From the NCBI RefSeq assembly GCF_009498035.1, contig NZ_CP034550.1, forward strand, positions 2,852,001 through 2,916,000: a DNA stretch of 64,000 bases, given 5' to 3'. The notes under the pieces were generated by a model. The model saw only the letters and a program-made list of their open reading frames with translations, did no database searches and had not been told where the DNA came from. The stretch comes from Saccharothrix syringae (GTDB lineage: Bacteria > Actinomycetota > Actinomycetes > Mycobacteriales > Pseudonocardiaceae). Below are positions 52,980-64,000 of this stretch, in pieces (positions within the stretch are counted from its first letter, which is position 1; every line of letters starts with the position of its first letter). Both the position numbers and the translations under genes were made by a program.

Positions 52980-53715
52980 TGCCGCACTCCATTCGATCGT
53001 CCCACCAGGCGACAGACGCTATGACATGGCGCCGGGACTGACCACGGCCGGAAGTAGGCGCTGCAGGCACTGTGCCCGAAAGGCACGCCGGGACGACGCG
53101 ACAGGACCGGGCGACCCCCGGACGCGGGAGGCGCCGCCCGGGCACCCGCCGCCCGCCGGCGGGACGAGCCGGGCTCCGCCGGCCTGACGCGCCTTCCCCA
53201 CCACGCGTCGGCCGCGTGCGCGGCGCCGTTGACGTGGTCGGGGCGGATTCGTCCGGCAAGGTGAACGCGGGTCGTCGCGGTCGGGGGCCGCACCCGGGCC
53301 CGGGTGCGGCCCGCTCCCGATCACCCGGCGCGGGGGTCGGGGGCGCCGACGCCACCGCCGCGTGCCTGGAATCCGCGCCGCGCGTCTTCCCGATCATCGT
53401 CCCGACCGGACACCGGCACCGGGAACGCCGAAAAATCCGTTGTACCGGACCGAACGCGCCGTGACTCGATCGGATGACCACTCGGTGGTCTCTCCACAGT
53501 GGACTGACAACGATCGGTGACCGCTGCCGCCGCCCACCGGCTCGTTCCCTCCCGCCGGCTCACCCGGATGGCCCTATGCTGTGCCGAGCCGACAGGAAGG
53601 CAACAGCGGTTCGGGGACGGCACACCCCTCCCGCGCGGGAACGCCGTTCCACCGCGAGGCGGCGAGGTCAGCAGCGAAACGACAACCGGCACTCCCATCC
53701 GATCGAGGTTGCGTC
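52980..53715. other. 736-bp non-coding gap before the exopolysaccharide operon
   Basis: No open frame here has coding character. It contains one copy of CTCCACAGTGGAC (near 53494), similar to GTCCACAGTGGAC at 21319-21331, and an AT-richer stretch at 53425-53530 where the exopolysaccharide promoter may lie. I found no convincing -35/-10 pair. Confidence 0.55.
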
Positions 53716-55782
53716 ATGGTGGTTCCCCGTGCGCGTACCGGGTTGCTCACCCCGTTCCTGACCCTGCTCGCCGTCGCCGCCCTGACCGCGGCACCGGTCC
53801 GCGCGGCGGCGCCGGAACCCGGCGGACCCGCACCCGGTCCCGTCCGCGCCGGGGACACCGAACCCCCGCTGCCCGTCGTGGACGGTGCGATCCCCCCGGC
53901 CGACCGACCGACCACCGCGACGGGCGACGCGGTCGCGCTGCGCCCCCTGGTGATCGCGCTGGACGCCACCGACCCCGGCCTGCCCACCTGGCGGGCCGTG
54001 CTCGACCGGGTCGGCACGCCGTACGACGTCCTGCCGGCGATGACCGAGCCGCTGACCGCGGGCCGGCTGGTCCGGCCCGACGGCACCGGGCGCTACGACG
54101 CCGTCCTGCTGACCACCAACGCCCTGCTGCACCCCGACGGCGCCGGCGGTTACGCCAGCGCGCTCGACGCGGCGGAGTGGCAGGCGCTGTGGGCCTACGA
54201 GCGCGCCTACGCGGTCCGCCAGGTGTCGCTCTACACCTCCTGGGGCACGTTCCCGGAGGACTACTGCCTGCGCCCGGGGGTCGAGGGCGCCGTCACCTCC
54301 CCCGTCCGGCTCTCGCTCGCCGACGCCGGCGCGGAGCTCTTCGACCGGCTCCGGCCCACCGCCCGCGTCCCGCTGCACCGGTCCTACGCCTACCGGTCGG
54401 CGTTGGCCGGCGGCTGCGCGGCCCGGCCCCTGCTGACCCTGGGCGACCACGTCCTGGGCGTGGTCGGCACCTCCGTCGACGGCCGGGAGCGGGCCGCCCT
54501 GGCGTTCTCCTCCCGGGAGGACCAGGCGCAGACCGACGTGCTCGGGTACGGCCTGCTGCGCTGGGCCACCCGGGGCGTGCTCGTCGGCGAGTCCCGGCAC
54601 TGGCTCACCGTGGACGTGGACGACTGGTTCAACACCGGCGACCACCTGCACGAGGACGGTCGCCTGGAGACCGAGCCCGGCTTCCGGCTGAGCGGGGAGG
54701 ACGCCGCGGGCGCCGTCGCGCAGCAGCGGCGGCTGCGCGAGGACCACCCGGTGGCCGGGGACTTCACCCTGACCCTGGCCTACAACGGCGGCGGCCTGGA
54801 CCCCGGCGCGCCGGCGCGGTGCTCCTCCGCGGACACCGGCGACCCGTTGACCGGCTACTCCCGCTGCCTGGCGGGGGAGTTCCGGTGGCTCAACCACACG
54901 GTGCACCACCCGCCGCTGGACTCCACCACCTACGCGGAGAACGCGGCCGAGATCGCGGACAACCTGGCGATCGCCCGGCGGGCCGGGCTGACCGTGCCGA
55001 CCGAGGTGCTGAAGACCCCGGCCTACTCGGGGCTGGGCGTGTACCACCCGGACCCGGGCGCGGCGCCCACCGACCCGCCGACGGACTTCGGGCTGACCGG
55101 GTCGAACCGGGCGCTGCTGGCCGCGGCCCGCGACCTGGGCGTGCGGTACCTGCACGGCAACATGTCCTTCGCCGGCCACCGCCCCGGCTGCTTCAACTGC
55201 GGCACCCGCCACCCGCTCGAACCGAGCCTGCTGGTGGTGCCGGACTGGCCGACCGACATCGCGTACCACGTCACGACGCCGGCCGAGCAGACCTACTTCC
55301 ACAACCACCGGGGCGGCAGGCCCCCGTCCCCCGACCTCACCTACGACGAGATCGTCGACCACGAGTCGGACGTCGCGCTCCGGCACGTCCTGACCGGCTC
55401 GGCGTACGCGCACACCCTGCACCAGGGCAACCTGCGGGAGTACTCGCCGGGGCGCAGCCTGGTCTTCGACTGGCTCCGGGCGGTGGTGGGGAAGTACGCC
55501 GAGGACTACCGGGTGCCGCTGCGCAACCCCGACTGGCCCGCGCTGGCCCGGTACGCCGACGCGCGCACCGCGCACTTCGCCGAGCTGCGGTCGGGTGGGG
55601 ACGCGGTGTGGGACCGGCACGCCGGCACCGTCGCCTACACGCCCGCCACCACCGGTTCGCTGTTCTTCACCGGGGTGACCGCCCGGGACGGCGAGGTCGA
55701 CGCGTACGGCGCCGACACCGTCAGCCGGGTGCCGATCACGGCCGGGGTCGCCCTCGTGGCCACCGCGGCCCCGCGCGCATGA
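53716..55782 (+). CDS. Agd3-like secreted polysaccharide deacetylase (CE18 type), paralog 1
   Basis: A 688-residue secreted protein with a signal peptide to about residue 31. The first 270 residues are beta-rich (CBM87-like position); the deacetylase half has the metal motif LTVDVDDWFN near 299, NHTVHHPPLD near 393, LKTPAYSGLG, and GNMSFAGHRPGCFNCGTRHP near 475, quoted as GNMSFAGHRPGCFNCG. This order matches Agd3, which removes acetyl groups from galactosaminogalactan. It lacks PelA's catalytic hydrolase domain. It begins a coupled operon (ATGA into the next gene). Confidence 0.88.
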   Translation: MVVPRARTGLLTPFLTLLAVAALTAAPVRAAAPEPGGPAPGPVRAGDTEPPLPVVDGAIPPADRPTTATGDAVALRPLVIALDATDPGLPTWRAVLDRVGTPYDVLPAMTEPLTAGRLVRPDGTGRYDAVLLTTNALLHPDGAGGYASALDAAEWQALWAYERAYAVRQVSLYTSWGTFPEDYCLRPGVEGAVTSPVRLSLADAGAELFDRLRPTARVPLHRSYAYRSALAGGCAARPLLTLGDHVLGVVGTSVDGRERAALAFSSREDQAQTDVLGYGLLRWATRGVLVGESRHWLTVDVDDWFNTGDHLHEDGRLETEPGFRLSGEDAAGAVAQQRRLREDHPVAGDFTLTLAYNGGGLDPGAPARCSSADTGDPLTGYSRCLAGEFRWLNHTVHHPPLDSTTYAENAAEIADNLAIARRAGLTVPTEVLKTPAYSGLGVYHPDPGAAPTDPPTDFGLTGSNRALLAAARDLGVRYLHGNMSFAGHRPGCFNCGTRHPLEPSLLVVPDWPTDIAYHVTTPAEQTYFHNHRGGRPPSPDLTYDEIVDHESDVALRHVLTGSAYAHTLHQGNLREYSPGRSLVFDWLRAVVGKYAEDYRVPLRNPDWPALARYADARTAHFAELRSGGDAVWDRHAGTVAYTPATTGSLFFTGVTARDGEVDAYGADTVSRVPITAGVALVATAAPRA

Positions 55783-57827
55783 GCCCGGTCGGCGCGCGGC
55801 TGCGCATCCCGCTGCTGGTGGCCGTCACCCTCGCCGTGGTGGTGATCACGCTGACCAGCCCGCCGCCACCGGACCCCGGCGCCGCGACCGGGGAACCGGT
55901 CCCGGCCGCCGCGCCGCTGCCGGCCGCGGTCAAGCAGCGGGTGCCGGTGCGGTCGGCGCACCCGGCGGGCGGCGCGCCGCGCCCCGGCGACCGGGTGGCG
56001 CTGCGCCAGCTCGTCGTCGCCGCCGGCGCGGACGACGCCGGCCTGGCCACCTGGCGGGCGGTGCTGGACGGGATCGGCACGCCGTACGACGTGCTGGTGG
56101 CCGACCGCGAGCCGCTGACGCCCGGGCGGCTGGTCGGCCCGGACGGCGTCGGCCGGTACAACGGCGTCCTGCTGGCGGACGGCGGCGGGTACGCCGGCGC
56201 GCTCGACCCCGCGGAGTGGGAGGCGCTGTGGGCCTACGAGCGCGCGTACGGGATCCGCCAGGTGGCGCTGAACGCGCGCCCCGGCGCGTTCCCCGAGGAC
56301 CACTGCCTGCGCGACGGCCCCGCGGGCGAGGTCGGCGCGGAACCGGTCCGGCTCGCGCTGACCCCGGCCGGCACGGGGGTCTTCGACCACCTGCGCCCCG
56401 AGGCGGTGGTCCCGCTGACCGCCACCCACCTCCTCCGGGCCGGGTTGGCGCCCGGCTGCGCCGCCGAACCCGTGCTGTCCGCGCCGGACGGCGTGGCGGG
56501 GGTGGTGAGCCGGTCGCCGGACGGCCGCGAGCGCCTGGCGCTGACCTTCGCCGCCGGGCCGGACACCGCGGCCACCGCGCTGCTGGGCTACGGCCTGGTG
56601 CGCTGGGCCACCCGGGGCGTGCTGCTCGGCGAGCAGCGGCACTGGTTCACCGTCGACGTGGACGACTGGTTCAACGCCACGACGCGCCGCCGGGCCGGCG
56701 GCGAGGTCGAGCTGTTCCGGCTGGGCGACCGGGACGCGGTCGCGGCCCGCGACCGGCAGCGCGCGCTGCGCGCCCGGTACCCGGTGGCCGCCGGGTTCAC
56801 CCTGACCCTGCCCTACAACGGCGGCCTGTTCCGCACCGGCGCGCCGGCGACGTGCGCCGGGAGCGGCACACCGGACCCGCTGAGCAGCTGCTCCAAGAGC
56901 CTGGTCGGCGAGTTCCGGTGGGTCAACCACACCACCACCCACCCGCGGCTGGACGACACCTCCTACGAGGTGAGCCGGGACGAGATCCGCCGCAACCTCG
57001 ACATCGCCGCCCGGGGCGGGCTGCCGGTGCCGCCGGAGGTCCTGAAGACCCCGGAGTACTCCGGGCTGGGCGTGCGCAACCCGGACCCGCGCTCCACCGC
57101 GCCGCCGACCGACGTCGGGCTGGCGGGTTCCAACCGGGCGATGCTCGACGCCGCGCACGACCTGGGCGTGCGGTACGTGCAGGGCAACATGTCCTTCGCC
57201 GGCCACCGGCCGGGCTGCTTCAACTGCGGCACCCGCCACCCGCTGCGGCCGGAGCTGCTGGTGGTGCCGGACTGGCCCACCGCCGTCGCGTTCGAGGCGA
57301 CCGAGCCGGAGGAGCAGGTCGCGCTGCGCGCCGCCGCCGCGCCCGGCCGCGACCAGTCCTACGGGCAGTTCGTGGACTCCGAGGCCGACGTCGCGCTCCG
57401 GCACGTCATGGCCGGCTCGGCGTACGCGCACACCCTGCACCAGGGCAACCTGCGCGAGTACGCGCCGGGCCGGAGCCTGGCGTTCGACTGGGTCGAGGCC
57501 GTGGTGGCGGGGTACGCGGCGCTCTACCGGGTGCCGTTGGAGGGCCCGGACTGGCGGGCGCTGGCGCGCTACGTCGAGGACCGGACGGAGCACTTCGCCG
57601 AGCTGGCCGCCGGCCGCGACGCGGTGTGGGACCGGGCCACCGGCGAGGTCGCCTACACCGCCGACGGCGACCGGGCGCTGCTGCTGACCGGCGTCGAGAC
57701 CCGACCGGCCGGCGACGCCGACCGGTCCTCCGCCGACGAGGCGGAGACCTACGGGTCGGACGAGGTGTCGCGGCTCGGCCTGACCCGCGGCGGGCGGGTC
57801 GTCCTGAGGGCGAGCCCCCGGCCATGA
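55779..57827 (+). CDS. Agd3-like polysaccharide deacetylase, paralog 2
   Basis: A 682-residue tandem paralog of the preceding gene with a single N-terminal hydrophobic helix (residues 9-27) that is likely an uncleaved anchor. Motifs are FTVDVDDWFN near 292, NHTTTHPRLD near 383, LKTPEYSGLGV and SFAGHRPGCFNCG near 468. Conserved blocks are almost identical between the two, while linkers differ, indicating duplication. One secreted and one anchored enzyme may act on the same growing polymer. It overlaps both neighbours by 4 nt. Confidence 0.86.
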   Translation: MSPVGARLRIPLLVAVTLAVVVITLTSPPPPDPGAATGEPVPAAAPLPAAVKQRVPVRSAHPAGGAPRPGDRVALRQLVVAAGADDAGLATWRAVLDGIGTPYDVLVADREPLTPGRLVGPDGVGRYNGVLLADGGGYAGALDPAEWEALWAYERAYGIRQVALNARPGAFPEDHCLRDGPAGEVGAEPVRLALTPAGTGVFDHLRPEAVVPLTATHLLRAGLAPGCAAEPVLSAPDGVAGVVSRSPDGRERLALTFAAGPDTAATALLGYGLVRWATRGVLLGEQRHWFTVDVDDWFNATTRRRAGGEVELFRLGDRDAVAARDRQRALRARYPVAAGFTLTLPYNGGLFRTGAPATCAGSGTPDPLSSCSKSLVGEFRWVNHTTTHPRLDDTSYEVSRDEIRRNLDIAARGGLPVPPEVLKTPEYSGLGVRNPDPRSTAPPTDVGLAGSNRAMLDAAHDLGVRYVQGNMSFAGHRPGCFNCGTRHPLRPELLVVPDWPTAVAFEATEPEEQVALRAAAAPGRDQSYGQFVDSEADVALRHVMAGSAYAHTLHQGNLREYAPGRSLAFDWVEAVVAGYAALYRVPLEGPDWRALARYVEDRTEHFAELAAGRDAVWDRATGEVAYTADGDRALLLTGVETRPAGDADRSSADEAETYGSDEVSRLGLTRGGRVVLRASPRP

Positions 57828-59275
57828 CCACCTGTCGGCGGGCACCGGTCACCGGGGCGGCCACCCCGGCGCGGGCGCCGCGGGTCACGCTGGTCGCCGA
57901 GGGCGCCTACCCGTACTGCGCGGGCGGGGTGAGCCTGTGGATCGACCAGCTCGTGCGCGGTGTGGCGGGGTACGCCTTCACCGTCGTCGCGCTGACCGTC
58001 GACGGTTCGGAGCGCCCCGGCTGGCCGGTCCCGGCGGGCGTGGAGGTGGTGAACCTCCCGCTGTGGGGTCCGCGGCCGCGCCGGCCGCGGGGCAGGCCGC
58101 GCGGGATCGCGGACGCGCACGAGGCGTTCCTGCGGTCCTTCATCCCGACCGCCGACGGCGGCGCGGACGCCATGCTCGCGGCGCTGCGCCGGCTGTTCGA
58201 GCTGGCCCAGTCCGCGGACCTGTGCTCGGCGCTGGTGGCCAACGACGCGGTGGACCGGCTGATGGCCGTCGCGGCGGACGCCGGGCACCCGCTGTCGCTG
58301 CGCGACGCGGTCACCGCCACCGACCTGCTGGAGCACCTGCTGCGCCCGCTGTCGCACCCGCCGGTCCGGACGGACGTGTGCCACCTGGCGATGAACGGGC
58401 CCAGCGCGCTGGTGGGCATGGCGGCCAAGTGGGCGCACGGCACCCCGCTGATGATGTCCGAGCACGGCGTGTACCTGCGCGAGCGGTACCTCGGCGCGAT
58501 CGAGGAGCAGGCGCCGCCCGCGGTCAAGCGGCTGCTGCTCGCCTTCCACCGCGCGCTGACCGGCGCCGCGTACCGCTGTTGCGACGCCCTGGCGCCGCAC
58601 TCGGCCTACAACCGGCGGTGGCAGCTGCGCAACGGTGCCGACGAGGGGCGCGTGCGGACGATGTACAACGGCATCGACCCCGAGGTCTTCCCGGTGGCGC
58701 CGGGGGAGCCGGACGAGCCGACGATCGTCTTCGTCGGCCGGGTCGACCCCCTCAAGGACCTGCACACCCTGATCCGGGCGTTCCGGATCGTGCGCAGCGA
58801 GCTGCCCGAGGCCCGGCTGCGGGTGTTCGGGCCGGTGCCGCTGGTCAACCGGGGCTACCACGCCGGCTGCCTGGACCTGGTCGACCGGCTCGGCCTGTCG
58901 GGCGCCGCGGTCTTCGAGGGCCGGATACCCCACCAGGTCGACGCCTTCCACCAGGGCCACCTGGTCGCGCTGACCAGCGTGTCGGAGGGCTTCCCGTTCA
59001 GCCTCATGGAGGGGATGTCGACCGGCAGGCCGCCGGTGTGCACCGACGTCGGCGGTGTGCCCGAGGCCGTCGGCGACGCCGGGATCATGGTGCCGCCGCG
59101 GGACTGCGCCGCGTTCGCGGGGGCGTGCCTGCGCCTGCTCACCGACGGCGAGCTGCGCCGCCGCCTGGGCAGGCTCGCCCGGCAGCGCGTGCTGGAGAAC
59201 TTCACCCTCCGGCGGTGGAACGACGGCTACCGCGCCAGGTACGCCGAACTGGCCGCGCGCAGCCGGTCGGGATGA
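57824..59275 (+). CDS. pelF: PelF-type GT4 glycosyltransferase
   Basis: A 483-residue GT-B glycosyltransferase. The N-terminus AEGAYPYCAGGVSLWIDQLV, quoted as EGAYPYCAGGVSLW, is the PelF signature; a long insert follows to about 280, then MMSEHGVYLRERYL, MYNGIDPEVFP and IVFVGRVDPLKDLHTL near 305, and the donor site TSVSEGFPFSLMEGM near 385. PelF polymerises UDP-linked amino sugars in the cytosol for Pel export. No PelA, B, C, D or E genes occur in the window, but Gram-positive systems lack the outer-membrane parts. Coupled by ATGA to both neighbours. Confidence 0.92.
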   Translation: MTTCRRAPVTGAATPARAPRVTLVAEGAYPYCAGGVSLWIDQLVRGVAGYAFTVVALTVDGSERPGWPVPAGVEVVNLPLWGPRPRRPRGRPRGIADAHEAFLRSFIPTADGGADAMLAALRRLFELAQSADLCSALVANDAVDRLMAVAADAGHPLSLRDAVTATDLLEHLLRPLSHPPVRTDVCHLAMNGPSALVGMAAKWAHGTPLMMSEHGVYLRERYLGAIEEQAPPAVKRLLLAFHRALTGAAYRCCDALAPHSAYNRRWQLRNGADEGRVRTMYNGIDPEVFPVAPGEPDEPTIVFVGRVDPLKDLHTLIRAFRIVRSELPEARLRVFGPVPLVNRGYHAGCLDLVDRLGLSGAAVFEGRIPHQVDAFHQGHLVALTSVSEGFPFSLMEGMSTGRPPVCTDVGGVPEAVGDAGIMVPPRDCAAFAGACLRLLTDGELRRRLGRLARQRVLENFTLRRWNDGYRARYAELAARSRSG

Positions 59276-60627
59276 CCGTCGCCGAACTGGCCGGGCGGGT
59301 CGCCGGGGTGCTGCCCGACCCGGCGGACGAGCTCCAGGTGGCGGCGGTGCTGGAGAGCCAGGGGATCACCGACCAGGCCGCGGTCGAGGTGTACGGGGTG
59401 GCCGACGTGTTCGAGCTGGCCCGGCGGGTGTACGACCGGTTGCCGCGCGAGCCCGGCCCGGCGCCCGGCGCCGGCGCGCGGGATCCCCGCTCCTGGTACG
59501 ACGTGGCGCACGGCCCGCTGTACCTGGCGCCCGCGGCCGCCTACCCGGCGCTGGCGACCGCGCTGGGCGCCCCGGCGGCGGTGCGCGTGCTGGTGCTGGC
59601 CACGACCGTCGGCTGGCTCTGGGGCGCGGGCGCCGGCTGGGCGGCGCACCGGGTGCGCCGCTCGGGCGCGGGCCGGGCGGCCGGGCGGCTGCTGCGCGTG
59701 CTGGCCGTCGCGGGCCTGGCCCTGGCGGCGGTCGGCGCGCTCGTGCTGCTCCCGCCCGGTGGCGGCCCCGCGCCGGCGCTGTTCGCGGTGGTGCTGACGG
59801 CCTACCAGATCGCCTCGGGCATCCTGGTCTTCTACCGCCGGGAACCGCTGGTCCTGCTCGTCGCGCTGCCCGCGGTGCTGGGCGGTGCGGTGCACCTGCT
59901 GCGGGGCCGCGCCGACGACGTCCCGGTGCTGCTGTTCGGCTTCGCCTCCGCGGCGGCGGCGCTCGGCCTGGCGCTGCTGGCCACGCTGGGCGCCGAGGAC
60001 GCCGTGGGCGTGCGGCCGCCGGGTGCGCGGGTGCTGGTGCTCGGTGCGCTGCCCGGCGTCGGGTACGCGGCGCTGTGCGCGGCCTTCCTGCTCCACACCG
60101 ACGTCCGGTTCGTCGGCGGCGCGCTCGACCTGGCCGTGGCGATGGCGCCGCTCGCGCTCGGCATGGGCGTCGTGGAGTGGCGCGCCAACCGGGTCTTCGA
60201 GCAGGTCGGGGAGCTGCTGCGGGAGGCCCGCCCCACCGCCTGGTTCCGCGACGCGGTGTGGCGCCTGCTGCTGCGGGAGCTGGCCACCTGCCTGCTGGTC
60301 CTCGGCGCGCTCGCCCTGGTCCTGCTGGTCTGCCTGGGCCGGGCGGGCCTGCTGACCTCCCGCGGCGCGCTGCTGGTCGACGCGCACGTCGTGCTCGGCG
60401 GCGCGTTCTTCCTGGGGTTCGTCCTGGCCCGGACCGGCTGCCTGGCGCGGCTGCTGGCCGTGCTGGCCGGCGTGCTGGTCGCGAACGTCGTCCTGGCCGG
60501 GCTCGTCGCCGACGCGTGGGCGCCGGACGCCCACGTGCCGGTGTTCCTGGTGTGCTGCACCGCTTTGTCGCTGCTCATGCTGTCGGCGCTCCGCGCGAGC
60601 GTCGGGGACGTCCACCACTACCGCTGA
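59272..60627 (+). CDS. Multi-pass membrane protein of the Pel-like operon (PelG position)
   Basis: A 451-residue protein: a 75-residue soluble start (AAVLESQGITDQAAVEVYGV, quoted as VLESQGITDQAAVEVYG) and then about 11-12 hydrophobic segments. Size and position after pelF match PelG, the membrane partner of PelF, though I see no clear flippase motif and homology is not shown. It likely passes or anchors the polysaccharide. It ends 17 nt before the nucleotidyltransferase gene. Confidence 0.7.
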   Translation: MTVAELAGRVAGVLPDPADELQVAAVLESQGITDQAAVEVYGVADVFELARRVYDRLPREPGPAPGAGARDPRSWYDVAHGPLYLAPAAAYPALATALGAPAAVRVLVLATTVGWLWGAGAGWAAHRVRRSGAGRAAGRLLRVLAVAGLALAAVGALVLLPPGGGPAPALFAVVLTAYQIASGILVFYRREPLVLLVALPAVLGGAVHLLRGRADDVPVLLFGFASAAAALGLALLATLGAEDAVGVRPPGARVLVLGALPGVGYAALCAAFLLHTDVRFVGGALDLAVAMAPLALGMGVVEWRANRVFEQVGELLREARPTAWFRDAVWRLLLRELATCLLVLGALALVLLVCLGRAGLLTSRGALLVDAHVVLGGAFFLGFVLARTGCLARLLAVLAGVLVANVVLAGLVADAWAPDAHVPVFLVCCTALSLLMLSALRASVGDVHHYR

Positions 60628-60644
60628 CGAGGAAGGGATTCCAC

Positions 60645-61385
60645 ATGCACGCGGTGATACTCGCGGGCGGCCGAGGGGTGAGGCTGCGGCCTTACACCAC
60701 GGCGTTGCCGAAGCCCTTGGTGCCCATCGGGGAGGAGTACGCGATCCTCGACATCATCCTGCAACAGCTGCGGGCGCACGGGTTCGACCGCGTCACGCTG
60801 GCGATCGGCCACCTCGGCTCGTTGATCCGCGCCTTCGTCGGCGACGGGTCGCGGTGGGGCGTCGCGGTGGACTACTCCGAGGAGGAGGCGCCGCTGTCCA
60901 CCATCGGCCCGCTGCTGAACTTCCTGGACCAGCTGCCCGAGAACTTCCTGGTGATGAACGGCGACGTGCTCACCGACCTGGACTACGTCGCGCTGCTGGA
61001 GCACCACGTGGCCCGCGAGGCGCCGCTGACGGTGGCCACCCGCCGGCGCGAGGTGCGGATCGACTTCGGCACGCTGGAGGCGGTCGACGGCCGGATCGTG
61101 GAGTTCGTCGAGAAACCGGTCCTGTCGTACGGCGCGAGCATGGGCGTGTACGCGATGGCGCGCAAGACGCTCGCCCCGTACCCGCGCAACGTCCCCTTCG
61201 GACTGGACGAGCTGGTGCTGGACCTGCTGGCCCGGGGCGAGGAGCCGGCCGCCTACGAGTTCGACGGCTACTGGCTGGACATCGGCCGGCCCGACGACTA
61301 CGACGAGGCCAACCGGTGCTTCGACCGGTTCCGGTCGACGCTGCTGCCCACCGGACCGCGGCGGGTGCGCTCGTGCGCCGGGTGA
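60645..61385 (+). CDS. Sugar-1-phosphate nucleotidyltransferase
   Basis: A 246-residue enzyme: AVILAGGRGVRLRPYTTALPKPLVPIG, quoted as LAGGRGVRLRPYTTALPKP, NFLVMNGDVLTDLD with the metal-binding Asp, and FVEKPVLSYGASMGVY with EKP. These define glucose-1-phosphate-type nucleotidyltransferases, which make NDP-sugars. GGAAGG lies upstream of the ATG. In this operon it probably makes the activated sugar for the polymer; which NTP or sugar is used cannot be read. Confidence 0.9.
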   Translation: MHAVILAGGRGVRLRPYTTALPKPLVPIGEEYAILDIILQQLRAHGFDRVTLAIGHLGSLIRAFVGDGSRWGVAVDYSEEEAPLSTIGPLLNFLDQLPENFLVMNGDVLTDLDYVALLEHHVAREAPLTVATRRREVRIDFGTLEAVDGRIVEFVEKPVLSYGASMGVYAMARKTLAPYPRNVPFGLDELVLDLLARGEEPAAYEFDGYWLDIGRPDDYDEANRCFDRFRSTLLPTGPRRVRSCAG

Positions 61386-62290
61386 CGGTGCTGCTGTTCG
61401 GCGCCTCCGGGCACCTCGGCCGGTGGGTCGACCGGGCGCTGTCCGCCCGGCCGGGGCGCGTCGCGGTGGTGCGGGTCGGCCGCGCCGCGCCGCGCGGCCC
61501 CGGCTGGGTCCGGCACGACCTGGCCGCCGACGACCCCGCCGGGCTCGCCGGCCTGCTGGCCGCGGTCGCGCCGGACGCGGTGGTCAACTGCGCCGGCCTG
61601 CTGGACGGCACGGCCGCGGAGCTGGTCGCGGCGAACGTGACGGCGGTGGCCCGGCTGCTCGACGCGGTGCCCGCGGCGGCGCCGGGCGCCCGGCTGGTCA
61701 CCGTCGGCTCGGCGGCCGAGTACGGCGTGGTGCCGGAGGGCCGCGCGGTCGCCGAGGACGCGCCCGAGCGCCCGGTGTCCCCGTACGGGATCACCAAGCT
61801 GGCCGGCACGGCCCTGGTGCGGGCGGCGGTCGCCGCGGGCCGGCTGGACGCGGTGGTGCCGCGGGTGTTCAACCCGGTCGGCCCCGGCACGCCCACCGGC
61901 ACGGTGCTGGGCCGCGCGGCGGCCGCCATCCGCACCGCCGCGGCCACCGGCGGGACCGTCCGGCTGGGCCCGCTGGACGCCCACCGCGACTTCGTGGACG
62001 TGCGCGACGTCGCCGGGGCCATCGCCGCCGCCGCGCTGGCGCCGGGACCGGTGGGCCCGGTGCTCAACGTCGGCACCGGCACCGCGGTCCCGGTGCGCGA
62101 GGCGGTCGGGCTGCTGGTCGAGGCGTCCGGCTTCGGCGGGCGGGTGGTGGAGGCGGACCCGGCGCCGGCCAGGTCGGGCGCGGTGCGGTGGATCGCGGCC
62201 GACCCGACCCGGATCCGGCGGGCGCTGGGCTGGGGGCCGCGGCACGACCTGGCGGCGTCCGTGCGCGACCTCTGGGCGTGCCCGGCGTGA
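61382..62290 (+). CDS. NAD-dependent sugar epimerase/dehydratase
   Basis: A 302-residue extended SDR: the Rossmann motif LLFGASGHLGRWV near residue 4, VGSAAEYGVV, catalytic YGITK near 138, HRDFVDVRDVAGAI near 200. It has the features of UDP-sugar 4-epimerases or reductases. A UDP-GlcNAc/UDP-GalNAc epimerase would fit a galactosamine polymer, but the closest activity is undecided. The GTG at 61382 gives a GTGA overlap; GTG 61373 is also possible. Last gene of the operon. Confidence 0.86.
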   Translation: MTVLLFGASGHLGRWVDRALSARPGRVAVVRVGRAAPRGPGWVRHDLAADDPAGLAGLLAAVAPDAVVNCAGLLDGTAAELVAANVTAVARLLDAVPAAAPGARLVTVGSAAEYGVVPEGRAVAEDAPERPVSPYGITKLAGTALVRAAVAAGRLDAVVPRVFNPVGPGTPTGTVLGRAAAAIRTAAATGGTVRLGPLDAHRDFVDVRDVAGAIAAAALAPGPVGPVLNVGTGTAVPVREAVGLLVEASGFGGRVVEADPAPARSGAVRWIAADPTRIRRALGWGPRHDLAASVRDLWACPA

Positions 62291-62346
62291 CCGCGCACGG
62301 CCTCCGGGGGTGCCCGTGCCCCTCACCGGTCGGCGCGCCCCGCGGT

Positions 62347-63234
62347 TCACCGGCACGGCGTGCCGATCACGTCCAGGGACCGCACGGTCACCGTCCCCGC
62401 GAACCCCTCCTCGCGGTAGCGGCGGCACGCCTCCACGACGTTCTCCGGGACGATCGCGTAGTCCACGGCCAGCACGGTCTTCCCGGCCTCGCGCACCTTC
62501 CGGGTCGCCGCCAGGTCGGTGGCGCAGAAGTCCGCCGCGCACGGCTGGTCGGTGGCCTGGAAGAACAGCTCCTCCACCCCGATGCCGTCGATCGAGTCCA
62601 GGTACCCGGGGTACTCGGCCAGCTCGGGGGAGTTCTGCGGGTAGACCCGGAAATCCCGGTCGGTGCCCTTGCCGTACGCGCTGACCCGCCCGACCAGCCC
62701 GACCATGAGCCGGGCCAGCTTCGCGCGGTCGAACCCCGGGACCAGCGCCTGGTCGATCTCCTCGTACGCCAGGGGCGTGTCCAGGTAGACGCCGTCGAAG
62801 CCGGCGCGCAGCGCGCGGTCCACCCGGGGCCGGACCGCCAGGTCCCACCACTCCGGTGCCCAGTACCGCACGAAGTACTCCCCGGGCCAGCTCGACCACT
62901 CGTTGAGCAGCAGCCCGGCGTCGCGGATCGCGGTGAAGTCGGGGCGGAAGGACTCCACCGAGCCGATCTCGAAGTAGGCCAGCACCTGTTTGCCGGACGC
63001 GCGCAGCCCGGCGACCTCCTCGGCGCTGAAGTAGGAGTCGCCGGCGTCCCGCGCCAGGTCGATCACGGCGTAGTCGGCCGGGGTGCCGGTCAGCGCGTTG
63101 AGCCGGCCGTCCTGGTAGTCCTGCAACTGGTAGACGAGTCCGCCCTCGGCGGACTCGACCGTGGTGCAGGCCGCCGCGCCCAGGACGAGCAACGCCGAGA
63201 GCATCGCGAAGAACCGGCTGTGTAATTTCACCAT
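62347..63234 (-). CDS. GH114-family endo-alpha-1,4-polygalactosaminidase-like lipoprotein
   Basis: A 295-residue protein with a lipobox L-G-A-A-A-C at Cys23. The TM1410/GH114 barrel shows YAVIDLARDAG, VLAYFEIGSVESFRPDF near 87, quoted as VLAYFEIGSVE, DGVYLDTPLAY, SIDGIGVEELFFQ, and a final AGKTVLAVDYA. Ega3-type enzymes of this family cut galactosaminogalactan. Facing the Agd3/PelF operon, it may trim or release the same polymer. The codon after GTG-AAA is TTA (63223-63225). It is convergent with the epimerase. Confidence 0.87.
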   Translation of the reverse strand: MVKLHSRFFAMLSALLVLGAAACTTVESAEGGLVYQLQDYQDGRLNALTGTPADYAVIDLARDAGDSYFSAEEVAGLRASGKQVLAYFEIGSVESFRPDFTAIRDAGLLLNEWSSWPGEYFVRYWAPEWWDLAVRPRVDRALRAGFDGVYLDTPLAYEEIDQALVPGFDRAKLARLMVGLVGRVSAYGKGTDRDFRVYPQNSPELAEYPGYLDSIDGIGVEELFFQATDQPCAADFCATDLAATRKVREAGKTVLAVDYAIVPENVVEACRRYREEGFAGTVTVRSLDVIGTPCR

Positions 63235-63458
63235 ATTGAACGGTTTTTTCACCCGATCGGGTTTTCCGATGTCGGAATTCGAGGGCCGGTCAGGGCCCCG
63301 ACCTCCCCGTGCGAGAACGCGAGCCCCGGTGGAAATGGCTTCCGGGAAATCGTATCGCCGGATTGCGGCGATCGCACTTCCGCCGAGCCCGGGCGCGGTC
63401 CGCACCACCCTCCGAAGCCATCTGCCGGGTGACACCCCGATCTGCTAGCTTCCGGGGA
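63235..63458. promoter_or_regulatory. Upstream region of the GH114-like gene and right-edge gene
   Basis: A 224-bp divergent gap. Its left end is AT-rich, with a run of six T at 63243-63248 on the plus strand just upstream of the GH114-like start. No convincing -35/-10 pair, palindrome or RNA gene was seen. Confidence 0.35.
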
Positions 63459-64000
63459 ATGCGCGGAACTCCTGGTCGTGCGGTGGTCGCGGTCGCGGCG
63501 CTGGTCCACGTGCTGGTGCTCGCCCTGGTCGGTTCGGCCGCCGTGGCCCACGCGGGCGGTCCGCCGCCCCGGCGCGGCCACGAGTGCGCGACCCCGTCGA
63601 TCGACCGGCTGCAGCAGTGGCTGGCCTCCGGCGAGGGCGCCACCGTCCCGGCCACCGGCAGCCTGCTCGTGCGCGAGCACCACCGGTACGCGGCCGAGGT
63701 GGCGTTCCTGGGCACCGACTGGCACGTGGTCGTCGTGTGGCTGGGCAACCGGTTCGAGGCCCAGGCGGACCTGTCCGACTCGTCCGGTTTCTGGCTGACC
63801 TACAGCGCGACCGACGACCTCTACGTCCAACTGCGCCCCGCGTCCCACTGGAGCGGCGGCGACAAGTGGCTGACCCCGGTCCCGTCGACCGGCGGGAGGA
63901 CCGTGCGCAGGTTCTTCGGCTTCGCCCCCGACAGGTGGACGTGGCTGCCCGAACTGGGGCAGCCGTCGCACTCGTTCGCCTCGGCGCTGGGCGAGGCCCG
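63459..64000 (+). CDS. Secreted protein, 3' end outside window
   Basis: The frame is open to the edge (180 codons). ATG 63459 is followed by a Sec-type signal (AVVAVAALVHVLVLALVG) with cleavage after AHA near residue 32. The mature part has several Trp/Tyr-rich strands (TDWHVVVVWLGNRFEAQ, FWLTYSATDDLYVQL). No family is recognised. It starts 225 bp from the divergent polygalactosaminidase-like gene, so a link to the exopolysaccharide is possible but unsupported. Confidence 0.7.
   Translation, partial: MRGTPGRAVVAVAALVHVLVLALVGSAAVAHAGGPPPRRGHECATPSIDRLQQWLASGEGATVPATGSLLVREHHRYAAEVAFLGTDWHVVVVWLGNRFEAQADLSDSSGFWLTYSATDDLYVQLRPASHWSGGDKWLTPVPSTGGRTVRRFFGFAPDRWTWLPELGQPSHSFASALGEA

Follow-up and report, generated by a model that had tools for sequence, protein, structure and literature searches.

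A putative Pel-like exopolysaccharide cluster with CE18-like deacetylases in Saccharothrix syringae

What do seven closely packed genes in the chromosome of the actinomycete Saccharothrix syringae make? The genes lie in a window of 64,000 nucleotides (contig NZ_CP034550.1, positions 2,852,001 to 2,916,000), six of them on the plus strand (53716–62290) and one, encoding a hydrolase, facing them on the minus strand (62347–63234). An earlier annotation, made from the letters of the window and referred to here as the original prediction, described an exopolysaccharide operon for a partially deacetylated amino-sugar polymer. We propose that these genes encode a Pel-like pathway for a hexosamine exopolysaccharide that is exported and partially N-deacetylated, a reading to which we assign a probability of roughly 0.62. 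The polymer is probably an α-1,4-linked chain of N-acetylgalactosamine and galactosamine (GalNAc/GalN), with two chemotypes. Such a sticky cationic polymer would resemble the Pel of Pseudomonas biofilms and its counterpart in Aspergillus. The families of the deacetylases, the glycosyltransferase and the hydrolase argue for the predicted type of polymer, and the open reading frames (ORFs) stand where the original prediction had placed them, as follows.

53716–55782, plus strand: Agd3a, 688 amino acid residues, CE18/CBM87-like polysaccharide N-deacetylase (PF25116/PF25115)
55779–57827, plus strand: Agd3b, 682 residues, tandem paralogue of Agd3a (PF25116/PF25115)
57824–59275, plus strand: PelF-like GT4 glycosyltransferase, 483 residues, putative polymerase (NF038011, DUF3492)
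59272–60627, plus strand: 12-helix membrane protein of predicted MOP fold, 451 residues, putative polymer translocator
60645–61385, plus strand: sugar-1-phosphate nucleotidyltransferase, 246 residues (PF00483)
61382–62290, plus strand: short-chain dehydrogenase/reductase (SDR), 302 residues, NAD-dependent sugar epimerase/dehydratase/reductase (PF01370)
62347–63234, minus strand: putative GH191-like endo-galactosaminidase, 295 residues (PF03537, nearest structure 9ep5)

Families were assigned by a Pfam scan of nine proteins and with the NCBIfam hidden Markov models. Agd3a and Agd3b both exceed the cut-offs for PF25116 (CBM87_Agd3) and PF25115 (Agd3_CE), which bears out the prediction of two Agd3-like deacetylases. 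A three-domain Agd3 fold is predicted for Agd3a, the one of the pair compared by Foldseek; its model matches Agd3 (6nwz) with E 8.4e-36 and TMq 0.74 over 705 columns. The second match is NDST1, a heparan sulfate N-deacetylase (E 4.5e-18), and the relationship of Agd3 to NDST1 is already published (PMC10864358; here and below, what is said of a paper refers to the parts of its text that were covered). By eye, Agd3a begins with a signal-like segment, by which it would be exported, and Agd3b with a hydrophobic one. Residues D302, D303, H394, H398 and H569 are retained in Agd3a. In an alignment of 95 sequences that includes the window, the catalytic D377, D378, H510 and H514 are each kept in all 95 and H668 in 93, with two gaps. 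Metal ligands and catalytic acid are preserved. We infer that both proteins are active deacetylases.

The glycosyltransferase scores 148.8 bits against the PelF equivalog model NF038011, whose cut-off is 100, so that the label PelF is upheld; DUF3492 is matched as well. Two loci on the whole chromosome exceed this cut-off, the window copy and a second copy described below. Both glutamates of the GT4 motif E388-x7-E396 are present in 71/71 aligned PelF sequences. By analogy with Pel, UDP-GalNAc would be the substrate.

The hydrolase had been predicted to be a GH114 polygalactosaminidase-like lipoprotein. The hydrolase type stands, and the N-terminus is lipoprotein-like, by eye only, but the protein isn't Ega3-like. 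Against solved structures it scores 238.5 bits over 259 residues with 9ep5, 85.4 with TM1410 and 36.2 with Ega3, and we reject assignment to the Ega3-type GH114 enzymes on these scores. The nearest solved relative, 9ep5, is Env-GH191, a founder of family GH191, which cleaves Pel with a preference for GalN-rich stretches and itself carried the PF03537 domain label (PMC12054363); the window protein matches PF03537 with 112.1 bits against a cut-off of 27. The catalytic Asp and Glu occur in both proteins, and D152 and E221 are kept in 36/36 aligned sequences. Env-GH191 differs from the window hydrolase in the lipoprotein-like N-terminus of the latter, whose activity would follow from its family.

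The membrane protein, called PelG-like in the original prediction, has no family match in Pfam or NCBIfam at E 0.1, and its profile finds no PDB sequence at E 10. Its AlphaFold2 (AF2) model has a mean pLDDT of 90.8 and matches MATE, WzxE and MurJ (Foldseek, VIA-align). A 12-helix MOP (MATE/Wzx/MurJ) fold, the fold class of PelG, is thus predicted, and to this extent the earlier label stands; membership of the PelG family doesn't. PF16933 (PelG) matches neither this protein nor anything else in its own genome, although the Thermotoga maritima control was matched. PelG is above the cut-off in none of 36 searched genomes whose locus has the membrane protein (two have sub-cut-off fragments), and four Agd3 carriers with PelG have no match to the membrane-protein profile. 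We therefore reject the protein as a PelG family member. A direct hhalign comparison gave a probability of 0.1%, with a PelG profile of only five sequences (Neff 2.5).

The membrane protein looks like a fixed partner of the Agd3/PelF cluster because every locus fetched by its profile also has the deacetylase and pelF genes. In a search that scored 20 candidates per genome, the profile matched 12 of 80 genomes of the host family, its own included, at 14 loci; seven of the 12 non-own loci were fetched, and the deacetylase, pelF, nucleotidyltransferase and SDR genes are present in 7/7. The two other genomes of the host genus had no membrane-protein locus in this search. Outside the MOP matches, the protein has a conserved helical N-terminal part of ~60 residues (59272–59460, plus strand; LES-G-TD...DVF-LA), possibly a docking part for PelF. 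Two loci from the same phylum (L087 and L088) have PelG above the cut-off with an Agd3-like frame, recognised by eye from an FRWIN motif, just downstream, so that the phylum seems to have exporters of both types.

None of PelA, PelB, PelC, PelD and PelE was found among the nine proteins scanned with Pfam, in agreement with the original prediction. Across the whole genome, PF16963 (PelD) gave no match either, a search that is uninformative since no control matched. The lack of PelD and PelE families among the nine proteins, the presence of sugar-nucleotide genes, and a membrane-protein model that fits Wzx/MurJ flippases as well as MATE would all suit a cell-wall glycan, that is, a polymer attached to the wall, or a lipid-linked repeat flipped Wzx-like by the MOP protein and polymerised outside. 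We consider this improbable, as none of the seven genes belongs to an initiating phosphoglycosyltransferase, Wzy-like polymerase or ligase family, PelF is above its equivalog cut-off, and members of the Agd3 and GH191 families have long GalN(Ac) chains as substrates.

For the two sugar-nucleotide genes, the original prediction of a nucleotidyltransferase and an epimerase holds at the level of family (PF00483 and PF01370), the predicted epimerase being an SDR with no sugar assigned. The nearest models of the nucleotidyltransferase are mannose-1-phosphate guanylyltransferase (128.5 bits, cut-off 440) and MurU (109.2 bits, cut-off 250), both below cut-off. The SDR scores 125.2 bits with PF01370 and 68.6 bits with galE, below the cut-off of 262.3, and its best PDB match is a GDP-6-deoxy-hexulose reductase (2pk3, 92 bits); it is consequently rejected as a proven UDP-GlcNAc 4-epimerase of the Uge3/GalE kind.

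The plus-strand genes are tightly arranged. Coupling by 4-nt overlaps, as predicted, applies to 4/5 junctions (ATGA, ATGA, ATGA, GTGA) but not to that between the membrane-protein and nucleotidyltransferase genes, which has a gap of 17 nt and is the sole non-overlapping one. The operon and the hydrolase gene are convergent and 56 nt apart. No sigma-70-like promoter was found in 53400–63500, and two terminator-like sites (shuffle mean 1.3) both fall within the membrane-protein gene. ARAGORN calls a tRNA-Ala at 56597–56691 on the plus strand, inside the agd3b coding sequence, which is probably spurious.

A second complete cluster, copy B (L010, 5796000–5815999), lies ~2.9 Mb away on the same 10.93-Mb one-contig chromosome. 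The two copies share 65.6% identity in Agd3a, 65.7% in Agd3b, 73.7% in PelF, 53.4% in the membrane protein, 84.6% in the nucleotidyltransferase, 72.1% in the SDR and 64.7% in the hydrolase; within the window copy, Agd3a and Agd3b are 59.7% identical. Next to copy B lie genes for a nucleotide-sugar dehydrogenase, a Spherulin-4 protein and a further SDR, none of which is found in the 18-kb locus of the window copy (L011). By phmmer, the copy B Spherulin-4 protein matched five PDB sequences, solely through residues 310–420, which overlap a fibronectin-type domain.

In a FastTree phylogeny of 101 Agd3 sequences, rooted on L061, the second Agd3 genes of 17/17 tandem loci group in a clade of 17 leaves (support 0.95). 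The first genes of these loci make up another clade (support 0.84), which also takes in the only Agd3 gene of L013. From these separate clades, the two cluster copies appear to postdate the tandem duplication. The Agd3 pair of L040 has a separate origin, together with L057.

A survey of similar operons, suggested alongside the original prediction, shows how widely the gene set recurs. A genome-contig scan with Agd3 confirmed 144 stretches. The best 80 of these gave 75 loci, a choice that under-samples distant types, and both own copies bring the set to 77. Genes were counted in stop-to-stop ORFs with self-built iterated profiles at E 1e-4. Over the 77 loci the counts are 73 for PelF, 68 for the membrane protein, 67 for the nucleotidyltransferase, 55 for GH114/191, 44 for the dehydrogenase and 29 for Spherulin-4; the figure for the SDR profile, 66, is loose because this profile also matches other SDRs. 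With recurrences in dozens of genomes and at a second locus on the chromosome, the gene set is more than a chance grouping. The genera surveyed belong mainly to what we take to be Pseudonocardiaceae, Streptosporangiaceae, Micromonosporaceae and Streptomyces, and the set also takes in two Thermaceae loci and a few proteobacterial and other loci from metagenome-assembled genomes (MAGs). The nearest relatives in the scan are from Saccharothrix (74% identity). Genera follow record titles, some apparently mislabelled; the loci titled Rhodococcus rhodnii NRRL B-16535 (pairs L019/L028 and L036/L037) share match length and identity with Kibdelosporangium aridum, so that the title is possibly wrong. 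One locus of Kibdelosporangium philippinense (L053) has agd3 and Spherulin-4 in fragments and no pelF or membrane-protein match, and is either a decayed cluster or a frameshifted assembly.

The survey also bears on whether the cluster might degrade or remodel foreign fungal galactosaminogalactan, with its biosynthetic genes serving something other than an own polymer. Enzymes of the GH191 and Agd3 families have extracellular polymer as their target, and soil actinomycetes do encounter fungi. Nevertheless, the profiles for PelF, the membrane protein, the nucleotidyltransferase and the SDR each match in 66 to 73 of the 77 loci, and the tight operon joins the biosynthetic genes to the deacetylases; we regard degradation as a very remote prospect.

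Several findings weigh against the proposed Pel-like synthesis of a hexosamine chain. Two actinobacterial MAGs with Agd3 and PelF (L063, L067) have neither PelG nor the membrane protein. Among the matches listed, neither the nucleotidyltransferase nor the SDR reaches the cut-off of a specific NCBIfam model. The dehydrogenase, superfluous for a pure GalNAc polymer, is present in 43 of 48 loci of the type to which the window copy belongs. Finally, in both window deacetylases the position of Agd3 residue R613 is taken by D510 and that of M666 (motif CM4) by T567; in a profile alignment the window's PDW lies over the PRW of 6nwz at the R613 site. In Aspergillus fumigatus Agd3, R613 (motif CM3) coordinates the catalytic base, and mutation of R613 or M666 abolishes activity (PMC7229062). 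R613 is reported to be conserved in all fungal homologues and in most bacterial ones, and hence isn't strictly defining.

On account of these replacements, we file Agd3a and Agd3b in a divergent CE18-like clade. The R613 position is Asp in 67, Arg in 33 and Gly in one of the 101 aligned sequences. Thr at the M666 position accompanies all 67 Asp and the one Gly, and the 33 Arg sequences have Phe (22), Tyr (9) or Met (2) there. The Asp-type sequences form one clade of 68 leaves (support 0.78) that includes the Gly sequence, from L051. At 42 positions a residue is kept in at least 95% of the Asp-type clade but shared by no more than 10% of the Arg-type sequences. One of these residues is K433, found in 68/68 of the Asp-type clade, with Val in 30/33 Arg-type sequences; from the alignment, we would guess that the positive charge may have moved to K433, perhaps in compensation for the loss of R613.

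The clusters divide along the same line. The 48 Asp-type (type-I) loci, to which the window copy belongs, have the dehydrogenase in 43, GH191 in 36, Spherulin-4 in eight and a LegB-like SDR in none. The 28 Arg-type loci have neither dehydrogenase nor GH191, with Spherulin-4 in 19 and the LegB-like SDR in 20; "LegB-like" denotes a score band of the self-built SDR profile in those 20 loci, one protein of which scored 448.7 bits on NCBIfam, below the cut-off of 475. L053 was left out of this count. Seven Arg-type loci (L059–L064, L067) have no membrane protein, and as several are short contigs these absences mean little. The joint split of active site and sugar genes suggests that enzyme and polymer changed together, with the links among Asp-type, dehydrogenase and GH191 resting on one clade split and not on independent events.

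It is tempting to ask whether type-I clusters make a glycosaminoglycan-like copolymer of hexosamine and uronic acid, in which the dehydrogenase and a partner SDR make UDP-uronic acid and the Asp-type Agd3 deacetylates the hexosamine. The restriction of the dehydrogenase to Asp-type loci (0/28 Arg-type), its presence at copy B of the same genome, the joint change of the R613 and M666 positions, and NDST1 as the nearest solved fold after Agd3 speak for it. However, the window copy lacks a dehydrogenase within L011, a single PelF-type glycosyltransferase would have to link two sugars, and the hydrolase resembles the Pel-active GH191. The dehydrogenase has no substrate assigned, and its link with the Asp-type may be one event of shared ancestry; the NDST1 likeness is common to Agd3 itself (PMC10864358) and so is uninformative on uronic acid. 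We consider the copolymer unlikely. In a broader version, the product of Asp-type CE18 clusters in rare actinomycetes and Meiothermus would be an undescribed hexosamine chain with uronic acid or another modified sugar, exported by a MOP family distinct from PelG and acted on by deacetylases without R613; this is a little less unlikely, and we offer it tentatively.

How does the cluster compare with known systems? The galactosaminogalactan cluster of A. fumigatus comprises Agd3, Ega3, Sph3, Uge3 and Gtb3. It shares with the window the Agd3 homologues and a GH114/GH191-type hydrolase, and a Spherulin-4 protein lies near copy B; it differs in that PelF replaces the fungal synthase, the hydrolase is nearer to Env-GH191 than to Ega3, and R613 and M666 are replaced. 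In bacteria, Bamford et al. (2020; PMC7229062) described Agd3 (CE18) clustered with a cytoplasmic glycosyltransferase, a multi-spanning membrane protein and GH114, with Spherulin-4 in some actinobacterial clusters and homologues in Actinobacteria and Deinococcus-Thermus. The idea that fungal and bacterial parts are newly combined here, Agd3 and GH114 with bacterial glycosyltransferases, thus falls, having been published in 2020 (PMC7229062). Those clusters are alike in the CE18-like deacetylase, glycosyltransferase, multi-spanning membrane protein and GH114-labelled hydrolase; the membrane-protein fold, the exclusion of PelG, GH191, the Asp/Thr clade and the two types are not named in the main-text parts covered.

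Pel operons have also been described in Gram-positive bacteria (PMC7112168, PMC7112194, PMC13254593). Bacillus cereus pelDEADAFG (PMC7112168, PMC13254593) shares PelF, a MOP-superfamily membrane protein, an outward three-domain deacetylase and a hydrolase nearby, but the window has no PelG family member, its deacetylases are CE18-like and not PelADA, and PelD is missing among its Pfam-scanned proteins. Among the open-access papers found, by titles and abstract starts, such clusters are described only in PMC7229062 and the Gram-positive Pel papers, and nothing was found on PelG replacement, an Asp-type clade or two cluster types; the literature search found no relevant paper on polygalactosamine in actinomycetes. 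The kind of cluster is known, and its apparently new aspects are the PelG-distinct exporter, the Asp/Thr deacetylase clade and the two types.

For the Pel-like route we propose the following. The nucleotidyltransferase and the SDR would supply the activated sugar, which PelF would polymerise in the cytoplasm. The membrane protein, judged by its predicted fold, its place in the operon and its non-overlap with PelG, may translocate the chain in PelG's place. The two outward-facing Agd3-type enzymes would then deacetylate the chain and give it positive charge, as family, predicted fold and metal ligands suggest. The GH191-like protein, if it acts as Env-GH191 does, would cut deacetylated stretches and so limit or release the polymer. 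The likely use would be adhesion of hyphae and aggregates. In type-I clusters such as the window copy, whose deacetylases have a rebuilt active site, the product is probably a chemically altered form of Pel.

If this reading is right, a cationic matrix of the Pel/galactosaminogalactan type is widespread in filamentous actinomycetes, organisms that make many antibiotics. The membrane protein represents an unnamed family and may show the smallest machine of PelF plus a translocator. The two cluster types would amount to a natural experiment, in which two residues essential in the fungal enzyme were swapped clade-wide together with sugar-nucleotide genes, so that a change in the active site could be matched to polymer chemistry.

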